Below are positions 3,871-15,677 of a stretch of 24,182 nucleotides of DNA, piece by piece. This DNA comes from a virus. The notes under the pieces were generated by a model. The model worked only from the letters and a program-made list of their open reading frames with translations. It searched no databases and was not told the DNA's origin. Positions within the stretch are counted from its first letter, which is position 1; each line of letters begins with the position of its first letter. The position numbers were made by a program, and so were the translations under genes. The stretch is taken from IMG/VR virus record IMGVR_UViG_3300014838_000079, positions 1 through 24,182 of that record; one strand, given 5' to 3'.

Positions 3871-4588
3871 TGAATATATCCCAACGCAAGAGCAACTCAA
3901 CAATACTCTGTGGCGTCTAACCAACCTCTATTACATTGCAGATAAAAACGGCAATGAAGTCCTATTTAATCTCAATTGGGCGCAACTTGAATTATACGAA
4001 AGGGAATGGCATCAAATGCTTGTGCTTAAGGCACGGCAAATTGGCGTTACTACCTATTTTTCAATAAAATATTTGGATGATTGCTTTTGGCATAGCAACA
4101 CAAATGCTGGCATCATAGCGCATCGAAAAGAAGATGCCGAAGATATCTTTAAAAAAAAGGTAAAATACGCTTATGACAGAATGCCCTCATGGACTAGAAC
4201 CTTTAACTCGGCAACAAACGATAGAAGTGGAGAGCTTGCTTTTGACAATGGAAGCTCTTATCGCGTGTCTACAGGATTTCGCTCAGGAACATATCAGCGA
4301 TTGCTTGTGTCCGAGTTCGGTAAGATATGCGCAAAATCACCTGATGTCGCTAAAGAGATTGTTACAGGCTCACTCAACACTGTGTCTACAGATCAAATCA
4401 TTGCTATCGAATCCACAGCAGAGGGACGATCCGGCTATTTTTATGAATACTGTCAAACAGCCCAAGCCATTCAACAATCAGGAAGAGAATTAACTCCAAT
4501 GGATATGAGATTTTTCTTCTTTCCATGGTTCGATGAACCGGGATATAGATTAAAAAAATTGAAGGATAATTCTATAATAGAGGAATGA
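3863..4588 (+). CDS. terL: Terminase large subunit, N-terminal ATPase part
   Basis: 241 aa from the ATG at 3863; an in-frame ATG at 3833 is also possible, and neither has a strong ribosome-binding site. It contains the packaging ATPase motor: Walker A variant KARQIGVTT (residues 56-64), Walker B LLVSEFG with catalytic Glu151, and coupling motif IESTAEG (182-188). It then follows the usual TerL path to FFFPWFDEPGYRL. There the reading frame departs from the family and stops at 4586-4588, on the start codon of the HNH gene. The nuclease half is encoded 3' of that gene at 5063-5899. Either two polypeptides assemble or an RNA event restores the protein. Confidence 0.85.
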   Translation: MSDEYIPTQEQLNNTLWRLTNLYYIADKNGNEVLFNLNWAQLELYEREWHQMLVLKARQIGVTTYFSIKYLDDCFWHSNTNAGIIAHRKEDAEDIFKKKVKYAYDRMPSWTRTFNSATNDRSGELAFDNGSSYRVSTGFRSGTYQRLLVSEFGKICAKSPDVAKEIVTGSLNTVSTDQIIAIESTAEGRSGYFYEYCQTAQAIQQSGRELTPMDMRFFFFPWFDEPGYRLKKLKDNSIIEE

Positions 4589-5088
4589 AAACATGTCCTC
4601 AGTGCAATTTGCATAAACCAAAATTATTGAAATCAAAAGGAATATGCGTTAATTGCAATTCCAATAATTGGTACAAAGAAAATAGATCGAGCGTGTTGAT
4701 CCGTACTAGGAAGTATGGGTTAGAAAAGACGAGAAAGAAAAGAAAACTTCCTCTTGATCACCCTAGATTGATAGGGGAATTCGGTAAAGGTCATTTGACC
4801 AAACATGGATATCGTTATATAAATAAGATAGGACATCCTAATGCTATCAATACAGGAAATGGAAGAGCCAGAATTTATGAACATACTTTTGTCATGTCCC
4901 AGCATTTAGGACGACCACTAAAGAAAAATGAATCTGTTCACCATAAGAATGGTATACGGGATGACAATAGGATTGAAAACCTTGAATTATGGCATAAGGG
5001 TCAACCAATCGGGCAACGATTACAAGATAAGATAGAATGGGCTAAACAATTTCTCCAAGAGTATGGCTATGATATCAAGAAACAATGA
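4585..5088 (+). CDS. HNH homing endonuclease inserted in terL
   Basis: 167 aa. An N-terminal zinc ribbon (CPQC near residue 4, CVNC near 21) precedes a basic linker and an HNH_3-type domain ending SVHHKNGIRDDNRIENLELW (residues 117-136), with His119-His120, Asn128 and Asn132. HNH homing enzymes nick cognate genes lacking the insert, and repair copies the insert in. The ATG overlaps the terL N-part stop (ATGA), and its 3' end overlaps the terL C-part start by 26 bp. The ORF fills the whole insert, leaving no room for a group I intron core, so this is a free-standing type splitting the gene. Confidence 0.85.
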   Translation: MKTCPQCNLHKPKLLKSKGICVNCNSNNWYKENRSSVLIRTRKYGLEKTRKKRKLPLDHPRLIGEFGKGHLTKHGYRYINKIGHPNAINTGNGRARIYEHTFVMSQHLGRPLKKNESVHHKNGIRDDNRIENLELWHKGQPIGQRLQDKIEWAKQFLQEYGYDIKKQ

Positions 5089-11596: not shown

Positions 11597-11605
11597 CCGC
11601 ATCAT

Positions 11606-11697
11606 GGCATATTAGCTCAGCAGCAGAGCGCTTTGTTCCACTGTGATTGATATCTAGTTCCGCAAAGAGGTCGATAGTGCTAGTCTATCATATGCCA
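11606..11697 (+). tRNA. tRNA-like element with 27-nt anticodon loop
   Basis: The cloverleaf is complete apart from the anticodon loop. The acceptor GGCATAT (11606-11612) pairs with ATATGCC (11690-11696), with A11697 as discriminator. The D stem is GCTC/GAGC with a 7-nt loop. The anticodon stem is CTTTG (11631-11635)/CAAAG (11663-11667), followed by a 5-nt variable region. The T stem is GATAG/CTATC (11673-11689) with a 7-nt loop TGCTAGT. The anticodon loop is 27 nt (11636-11662) instead of 7. Read from the 5' side, the anticodon would be CCA (Trp). The T loop has G where T55 is normal, the D loop lacks GG, and no CCA end is encoded. A degenerate tRNA, a tRNA mimic or an attachment-site remnant are all possible. 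Confidence 0.5.
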
Positions 11698-11709
11698 TAC
11701 AATTTCTAT

Positions 11710-14614: not shown

Positions 14615-14854
14615 ATGACAGTATCAATTGCATCGTTGCCTCCACAGATACAACAGAGGTACAACGGAAAGCTTTTGTCAACTCCTGAGCATAATCTGAT
14701 TCACCAGCTTTTTGCCACACCAGTTGAGTTGCCAGACAATAATGGCTTTATTGATCGTCAGTCACGTTATGACAGACTAGATCTGTTTGAAGTGCCTCTC
14801 GATGATGGCCAAAACAACCCACCACCACAACAGTTAAATAGGGTGGATGTGGAT
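14615..14854 (+). CDS. Major capsid protein, coding part 1 (N-terminal)
   Basis: First 80 residues of the coat protein, with AAGGGAAA upstream. It reads MTVSIASLPPQIQQRYNGKL, then LIHQLFATPVELPDNNGFID, RYDRLDLFEVPLDDG and QQLNRVDVD, resembling the N-arm and early strands of podovirus coat proteins. The in-frame continuation after Asp80 gives 14 unrelated residues and a TAA at 14897. The expected next strand is found in another frame from 14905. The boundary at 14854 is set by a strong hairpin and by where protein-like sequence stops. Confidence 0.7.
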
Positions 14855-14872
14855 ATAAACGGCTGTCCACAT
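14847..14872 (+). other. P1-like hairpin at the end of capsid part 1
   Basis: ATGTGGAT (14847-14854) pairs over eight positions with GTCCACAT (14865-14872). A closing T-G wobble falls exactly at the proposed end of coding part 1, with a 10-nt loop. This is the geometry of a group I intron 5' splice site, or of a take-off hairpin in translational bypassing. The same architecture recurs at 14961-14983. Confidence 0.6.
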
Positions 14873-14904
14873 ATTAGTGATTGGCTGCTTGCAGCTTAAT
14901 GTGC
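14855..14904 (+). other. About 50-nt unexplained insert in the capsid gene
   Basis: It separates capsid parts 1 and 2 and must be skipped, or crossed by a frame change, to make the coat protein. It has stops in all three frames. It holds the 3' strand of the P1-like hairpin and a small stem GCTG-cttg-CAGC (14884-14895). It is far too short for a group I or II intron. The exact 3' edge is uncertain; skipping 47, 50 or 53 nt all restore the frame. Confidence 0.5.
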
Positions 14905-14967
14905 CGAGTACGTGTCTATGCAACATATATCACGTTGTCAAGACAAGTAACAATCACTAACGAGGAT
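14905..14967 (+). CDS. Major capsid protein, coding part 2 (internal exon)
   Basis: 21 codons reading RVRVYATYITLSRQVTITNE and a final D. The alternating beta pattern continues the strand of NRVDVD from part 1 and leads straight into PVLNSAAARLGQSL of part 3. Joining 14967 to 15678 keeps a codon boundary. It has no start codon of its own and is flanked by an insert on each side. The coding call is based on how well it completes the protein and on the P1 pairing at its 3' end. Confidence 0.65.
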
Positions 14968-15677
14968 TAACAGTGAGTCCTCGATAAATCTACTCTGATT
15001 GACTTGGAAGCCCTAACGTAAAGTCGAGGGTGACAAGGGCGAAGGAGTTAAATTTTTATGAGTGTTAATAGATTTGAGTAAAATATGACATTGTTGACGA
15101 ATAGAAATAGCATCGAGTGTGGGAGTTTTTCTCACTGCGCCCTTGATCGGTTTGCAGTAAGTTTCTCTCATTCTGATCATGATTTCGCAATGTCTCTTTT
15201 TGATTCTAAGATATGGATAAATCTTTGGAAGAAGGGTGTCAAGCGCTTCGCCTGTAAGATTGGCTTCATATACTTTTCGACGATTAAGATGTTTTCTATT
15301 TTTAGAAACAACTTTTCCCCAAAAGTGTATTCCAAGGAAATCTTGCAGCCATTGCATGATTCCAATATCGACGGAAGCAAATTTAAGAATGGTTCGATAA
15401 TTGAAAGGATGAGGACCGGTTTTAGCTTTGACAGTGTCAATGTAAAAACAGCCGTCACCATCAATGTATCCGGCCAAGTAAGCAAAGTTAAGTTCGTCAT
15501 GCATAGCATTTACTCCAAAACTACATTATACACACGTGAGATATTTAATTCCACGCTGAACGACTTAGCGAGTGGAATCCGAAAGGATATGCGAAAGTCT
15601 GATCTTCATGGAGACATGAAGAGGGAAATCCGAAGAGGTTTCCCCGCCTAGTAATAGGTCATTAAAGTAACAGTTTG
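14968..15677 (+). ncRNA. Group I (IA, td-like) self-splicing intron in capsid gene
   Basis: 710 nt. P1 pairs exon CGAGGAT (14961-14967) with GTCCTCG (14977-14983), with the T-G wobble at the 5' splice site. P3 may be CTACTC (14990-14995)/GAGTGG (15570-15575). P7 is GACTT (15562-15566)/AAGTC (15595-15599), P8 is ATCC-GAAA-GGAT (15577-15588), and P9 is CTTCATG-GAGA-CATGAAG (15604-15621). The run AACGACTT, then AAGTCTG and the P9 hairpin, closely parallels the T4 td intron core. The intron ends in G15677, just before the exon CCAGTG. Splicing gives NED-PVLN in frame. An antisense endonuclease gene fills its middle. Confidence 0.85.
15013..15504 (-). CDS. LAGLIDADG homing endonuclease, antisense in intron
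   Basis: 163 aa, with GGAG 9-12 nt before the ATG at 15504. A single LAGLIDADG motif, LAGYIDGDG (residues 10-18, catalytic Asp17), implies a homodimer like I-CreI. It continues with strand CFYIDTVKA, helix SVDIGIMQWLQDFLG and later KIYPYLRIKKRHCEIMIRMR. Such enzymes cut intronless alleles at the insertion site and so spread the intron. It runs opposite to the intron, so it needs its own transcript. Its last codons (15013 to about 15080) overlap the 5' part of the ribozyme core. Confidence 0.85.
   Translation of the reverse strand: MHDELNFAYLAGYIDGDGCFYIDTVKAKTGPHPFNYRTILKFASVDIGIMQWLQDFLGIHFWGKVVSKNRKHLNRRKVYEANLTGEALDTLLPKIYPYLRIKKRHCEIMIRMRETYCKPIKGAVRKTPTLDAISIRQQCHILLKSINTHKNLTPSPLSPSTLR

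Follow-up and report, generated by a model that had tools for sequence, protein, structure and literature searches.

The coat protein gene of the virus record IMGVR_UViG_3300014838_000079 (IMG/VR) raises the question of how a reading frame that is broken by a short gap could still yield a single protein. The window analyzed here is the whole stretch of 24,182 nucleotides (nt), and the element in question is a 47-nt insert in its capsid gene, upstream of a full-size intron. An initial annotation had offered ribosome bypassing, miniature splicing and frameshifting as explanations; miniature splicing is favored by the evidence presented below, whereas the other two are poorly supported. We consider it probable that the insert is a non-autonomous, core-less group I mini-intron that would be spliced by the neighboring ribozyme, in effect a natural 'spliceozyme' substrate, and that would place an SsrA-like tail on the unspliced product.

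Organization of the capsid gene

The capsid frame is open from the ATG at 14615 to a TAA stop at 14897–14899. In 80 relatives from IMG/VR the uninterrupted protein reads QLNRVDVD-C-RVRVYATYIVLTRQVTITNED-PVLNSAAARLG. Spliced protein-to-DNA alignment, performed with a purpose-written dynamic-programming procedure that requires a T at the exon end and a G at the intron end, identifies two interruptions in the window: 14855–14901 (47 nt, after codon 80) and 14968–15677 (710 nt, after codon 102), the second starting 66 nt downstream of the first. Joining the exons gives a 315-residue capsid protein of the N4-gp56 family. The gap had been noted previously and is real, as intact homologues align across it; it contains stops in every frame, as stated then. 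Its length is 47 nt rather than about 50, however, and the homologues place the resumption of the coat sequence at TGC 14902 (codon 81, following GAT of codon 80) and not at 14905. As to the doubt whether 14905–14967 is coat sequence, the 'RVRVYATYITLSRQ' stretch is exon sequence and conserved. The insert is found again in many other metagenomes and is therefore not an assembly error, and a dead prophage is not supported, many relatives having intact and conserved exons.

Recurrence and boundaries of the inserts

With distant capsids and intron motifs as queries in addition to exons 1 and 3, 326 analyzable loci were obtained, in which 33 distinct inserts of 29–59 nt occupy three capsid sites: 18 lie after codon 80 (site A), 14 after codon 88 (site B, in distant capsids) and one at codon 86 in phase 1, that is within codon 87 (L273). 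A U precedes the start and a G forms the end of all 33. The boundary is set uniquely by the protein in 17 of these, and all 17 uniquely fixed boundaries have this U and G. With 29–59 nt, the inserts (hereafter minis) have too little room for a catalytic core (P3–P8) of their own. Outside capsid genes, a scan with the 3' motif gave further matches, most of which have no recognizable 5' half and may be due to chance. Capsid genes of the same phage group are very intron-rich, with introns at more than 30 sites in all and as many as six in a single 315-codon gene (L112, L100, L118, L377 and others).

P1 and P10 pairings

In all inserts the end of the upstream exon pairs with the insert to form a P1 helix that closes exactly at the splice site by a U·G pair, with a mean score of 6.8 compared with 2.6 in shuffled inserts. 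The exon and guide strands show compensatory change (GTGGAT/GTCCAC versus GTCGAT/GTCGAC). P1 of the window is the 8-bp hairpin that the initial annotation described as strong (14847–14854 with 14865–14872). The hairpin is present, but its folding energy by itself is unremarkable (z = −0.44); its significance lies in its position at the boundary and its covariation across loci.

Directly 5' of the P1 guide strand lies a P10 strand, which in most inserts pairs with the next exon in a fixed register (4.88 of six fixed-register pairs, versus 2.20 after shuffling). P10 follows the exon's own codons (TGCCG/CGGCA, TGTAG/CTACA, CAGG/CCTG, ACCTAC/GTAGGT and ACCTAT/ATAGGT), and the pairing weakens when exons are swapped among loci (permutation p = 4.5e-4 for site A and 5e-5 for site B) and also when the exon is slid. 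The full introns, which served as a positive control, have the same P10 register (3.80 versus about 2). The 47-nt insert of the window thus has the ends and pairings of a group I intron: a U before it and a G as its last base, P1 with U·G and P10 (Table 1).

The full-size intron and its association with the minis

The full-size intron of the window has a U-ended 5' exon paired to a G in P1 and a G as its last base. An alignment of 38 short full introns from related capsid genes (alignment A2) defines a core with P3, P4, P6, P7 (in a pseudoknot with P3), P8 and P9, which is 96.1% paired; compensatory double changes occur in 28 of 32 pairs, a level reached by none of 500 shuffles and by no slid control. 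P7 varies among the introns (GACTA/TAGTC, GACTT/AAGTC, GACTG/CAGTC, GAACA/TGTTC and GAGCA/TGCTC), the window intron having the GACTT/AAGTC version and a core that is split by an endonuclease gene. A sister intron (L060) scores 26.6 bits (E = 4.7e-5) against Rfam RF00028, below the gathering threshold; RF00028 is a library model and not in itself a defining trait of group I introns. Judged by this predicted core, the full introns that accompany the minis are canonical group I introns. The LAGLIDADG endonuclease encoded in the window intron matches Pfam PF00961 (4.7e-8, 34.3 bits versus a cut-off of 23.1), with relatives I-MsoI and I-CvuI in the PDB. Antisense endonuclease copies are likewise present in the related introns L013 and L005.

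Among fully scored loci, a full group I intron is located downstream of each of the 29 minis, and for 28 of them it lies at codon 94–105 as the next intron, 26–66 exon nt away. In L272 an additional full intron at 88.1 is found between the mini and the downstream intron; at the 29th mini (L082) the full intron is at codon 116, with another at codon 79. No mini was found in 112 intronless capsids (Fisher 1.8e-19, with kinship ignored). We infer that the mini depends on the full intron.

C-terminal tails of the unspliced products

When the exon is read in frame into the intron (tails of at least four residues; non-redundant full introns), 22 of the 25 minis and 52 of the 100 full introns end in Ala-Ala-stop, often Leu-Ala-Ala; the other two frames give 0/35 and 0/188, respectively. 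The aberrant product thus carries an SsrA-like C-terminal -(L)AA. The Ala codon pairs are diverse (GCAGCG, GCTGCA, GCCGCG and GCGGCA, among others), and each of the three stop codons occurs; selection therefore acts on the peptide. One class of minis derives its Ala-Ala-stop from exon 2 read out of frame (TGT GCC GCG TAA, spanning the junction), and the synonymous exon 2 codons needed for this tail (CGC GTA AGR) are enriched in that class (7/17 versus 2/82). At codons 94–105, Ala-Ala-stop is present in 12 of the 24 full introns that have no accompanying mini and absent from all 30 that have one (p = 8e-6); on these counts, the tail relocates to the first interruption. Its end resembles that of the SsrA tag, and it likely functions as a degron for the removal of truncated coat protein.

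None of the five delimitable non-capsid introns of the same type has an Ala-Ala tail; with L379 included the count is 0/6 versus 52/100 for capsid introns (p = 0.03), a sample too small to judge capsid specificity. A second type of tail (-VVAFS-stop, -VVALS-stop or -VVFN-stop) occurs in introns without Ala-Ala-stop (L089, L127, L149 and L198) and may represent another class of degron. Related capsids are found in metagenome bins of Parachlamydia, Parachlamydiaceae and Simkaniaceae (L377, L375 and L369), two of which also contain related portals. Chlamydial hosts are possible, and binning errors could account for these bins. The transfer-messenger RNA (tmRNA) tags of the candidate chlamydial hosts end in LQAAA and LMAA.

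Proposed mechanism

The boundaries, the pairings, their covariation, the lack of a core, the invariable presence of a full intron alongside and the bias of the tails are all directly visible in the sequences. From the same data we infer that the insert is spliced, that the core is supplied by the neighbor and that the tail acts as a degron. The mini would have retained the P1, P10 and terminal G of a group I intron and lost its own catalytic core. A core does not fit into the minis; most simply, the downstream ribozyme would process both sets of P1/P10. Most likely, the core of the downstream full intron would dock the P1/P10 hairpin of the mini, cut after U14854 and ligate exon 1 to exon 2 at 14902; the same core would also excise its own intron. 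If translation precedes splicing, ribosomes would halt within the mini and leave the protein with a brief C-terminal extension that ends in -LAA or -AA; because this extension resembles the SsrA degradation tag, the truncated capsid protein would be degraded rather than poison assembly. Engineered group I ribozymes cut out internal segments by means of P1 and P10/P9.0, and 'spliceozymes' remove 100-nt introns (PMC6155759), and by this analogy the splicing of a core-less segment by a group I core appears feasible. The objection raised earlier, that splicing introns of such brevity are not known, is valid where an intron splices itself but loses its force if a neighboring intron provides the core. 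The mini would work like a group I intron and is not an autonomous member of the class. On a broader scale, we are inclined to believe that natural non-autonomous group I introns exist (29–59 nt with P1, P10 and a terminal G, one core serving two introns, parasitic on or cooperative with a ribozyme of the same transcript) and that phage capsid introns carry C-terminal degrons.

Several observations weigh against this interpretation. The splice finder required U and G ends, so that only the uniquely fixed boundaries constitute an independent check of them. Sequences within one site are kin, and the P-values overstate their independence. The folding energy of P1 on its own is not unusual, and the helix model of the mini comprises P1 and P10, with the P9.0 contact outside it. 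Rfam returned nothing relevant for the window at either gathering or relaxed thresholds, leaving the full intron unrecognized, and gave no match for the short same-site introns L274 and L154. The Ala-Ala tail is missing from one site A mini (L274) and from several minis at codon 88. Finally, as homing co-converts flanking DNA, the linkage of minis and full introns could in part be hitchhiking.

Alternative explanations

Programmed ribosome bypassing over the 47 nt, as in T4 gene 60, would fit a gap of comparable length with a hairpin on the take-off side, an in-frame stop and a homing endonuclease nearby, and a decayed group I intron is the suspected origin of the T4 gap (PMC5009743). However, identical take-off and landing codons are present in none of the 33 inserts, the insert of L273 splits a codon (phase 1), and the hop from GTG 14849 to GTA 14908 envisaged in the initial annotation would remove the conserved D80, C81 and R82. 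Bypassing does not require a P10 with the downstream exon, and the T4 gap lacks U/G ends, a boundary P1 and P10; we regard bypassing as very unlikely in this gene. A programmed −1 or +1 frameshift, the −1 variant of which had been proposed to join the frames, calls for a constant frame offset and was rejected: no single shift could join the frames because the insert lengths are 2 modulo 3 in 22 cases, 0 in eight and 1 in three.

The P1 and P10 evidence would equally suit group I-type excision that does not use the adjacent downstream core and relies instead on a protein factor or on a trans-acting ribozyme (either an upstream intron or one already excised, be it from the capsid gene or from a different one); several capsid-gene introns are indeed present in some phages. 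This would leave unexplained why the full intron is always downstream, at the close spacing described above in 28 of 29 cases, and we consider it unlikely. The insert might also be the remnant of a decayed full group I intron that hitchhikes with the adjacent mobile intron, the gene being damaged or the residue tolerated. At site 86.1, L085 carries a full intron and L273 an insert of 39 nt, and homing co-converts flanks, yet P10 and P1 covary, -AA-stop is maintained despite changing codons, and an in-frame stop would ruin an essential capsid gene whose exons nevertheless stay conserved; such decay is very improbable. Alternative splicing from the first 5' site to the 3' site of the large intron would skip exon 2 and generate a second form of the capsid. 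The frame is preserved at site A when 66 nt are skipped, but it is broken at site B with introns at 96.2 or 104.2, on which ground exon skipping as the purpose of the arrangement was rejected, and the partner of P10 is exon 2 and not exon 3, which makes this reading hardly credible.

Comparison with known systems

Splicing of the mini by the neighboring core would most closely resemble the engineered trans-excision ribozymes or 'spliceozymes' (PMC6155759), in which a group I core removes a separate core-less segment and both splice sites are set by P1 and P10/P9.0 (or P9.2). Those systems are designed, act in trans and carry the guide in the ribozyme, whereas here the system would be natural, the guide is in the mini-intron and the candidate core is in cis. 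The capsid intron of mycobacteriophage LittleE, the splicing of which was demonstrated by reverse transcription–polymerase chain reaction (PMC3706429), shares with the window the capsid gene, the U/G ends and an antisense LAGLIDADG gene; phage group I introns such as this one differ in that each contains a core, and no mini-intron was reported there (PMC3706429). The 50-nt bypass element of T4 gene 60, associated with MobA (PMC5009743), has matched landing codons, which are absent here. The T4 gap (AF158101) was also tried as a hidden mini group I intron and was rejected on the absence of the three features named above. The degenerate group II introns that euglenoid chloroplasts contain, known as 'group III' introns (PMC8393795), are likewise shrunken self-splicing introns without core domains that are presumed to be helped, but they are organellar and have group II chemistry and structure. 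The SsrA/tmRNA tag similarly gives a truncated protein a C-terminal -LAA or -AA; it is appended by tmRNA, whereas here the tail is encoded by the reading frame of the intron.

Should the proposed mechanism be correct, a group I ribozyme would in nature splice an intron without catalytic parts. The origin of the spliceosome has long been postulated to include a stage at which substrate introns are served by a shared catalytic RNA; for group I, to our knowledge, splicing with a shared core has so far been made only in the laboratory. Self-splicing introns in an essential, highly expressed and assembly-prone protein would moreover encode their own quality control, and there would be a plausible path to elements of the bypass type known from T4 gene 60. 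Neither core-less group I introns of natural origin nor degrons encoded within introns were described in the literature covered, which excludes most subscription journals.

Features of the window and related loci

The features of the capsid locus are listed in Table 1.

Table 1. Coordinates of features in the capsid locus of the window
Feature	Start	End	Strand	Basis and remarks
Capsid exon 1, codons 1–80	14615	14854	+	Ends GTG GAT; spliced alignment with uninterrupted homologues; weak match of exon 1 to TIGR04387 (N4-gp56 capsid)
P1 exon strand, AUGUGGAU	14847	14854	+	Terminal U pairs with G14865; fold
Candidate mini-intron, 47 nt	14855	14901	+	Preceded by U, last base G; too small for a ribozyme core
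In-frame read-through of unspliced RNA, INGCPHISDWLLAA-stop	14855	14899	+	SsrA-like -LAA end
P10 guide strand, CGGC	14860	14863	+	Partner is exon 2 GCCG at 14903–14906
P1 guide strand within the candidate mini-intron, GUCCACAU	14865	14872	+	Covaries with exon GTCGAT/GTCGAC in L059, L109, L144 and L279
Capsid exon 2, codons 81–102, CRVRVYATYITLSRQVTITNED	14902	14967	+	Alignment to intact homologues
Full group I intron (predicted), 710 nt	14968	15677	+	Spliced alignment, family structure, P7 covariation
Guide strand of the full intron's own P1, GUCCUCG	14977	14983	+	Pairs with exon CGAGGAU at 14961–14967
LAGLIDADG homing endonuclease, 163 residues, within the full intron	15013	15504	−	Antisense to the capsid gene
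P7 5' strand, GACUU	15562	15566	+	Pairs with AAGUC at 15595–15599; motif positions, covariation
Capsid exon 3, codons 103–315 and stop	15678	16319	+	Spliced alignment; TIGR04387, 63.3 bits versus a cut-off of 60

Among isolate phages, relatives of the capsid were found only at 23–25% identity, and no relative of the portal was found. The only DNA match in isolates is to Desulfovibrio phage 7757 and covers 65 nt of intron core; the tail encoded by that intron is WAR-stop and not AA-stop. In this phage (L379, 83–3700) an anaerobic ribonucleotide reductase-like gene appears to contain an intein together with an HNH-bearing group I intron of a related kind; it represents a cultured-host system for this type of intron.

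Elsewhere in the window, an HNH endonuclease open reading frame (4585–5088) interrupts the gene of the terminase large subunit at 4546–5071, which is intact in relatives (DEPGYRESSLAISVSKETNEY). The insert is nearly filled by the HNH gene and therefore has no space for a ribozyme; the second half of the terminase has its own ATG (5063), so that a split-gene arrangement like that of T4 39/60 is possible. A tRNA-Ser with the unusual anticodon ACT was identified by ARAGORN at 11605–11698.
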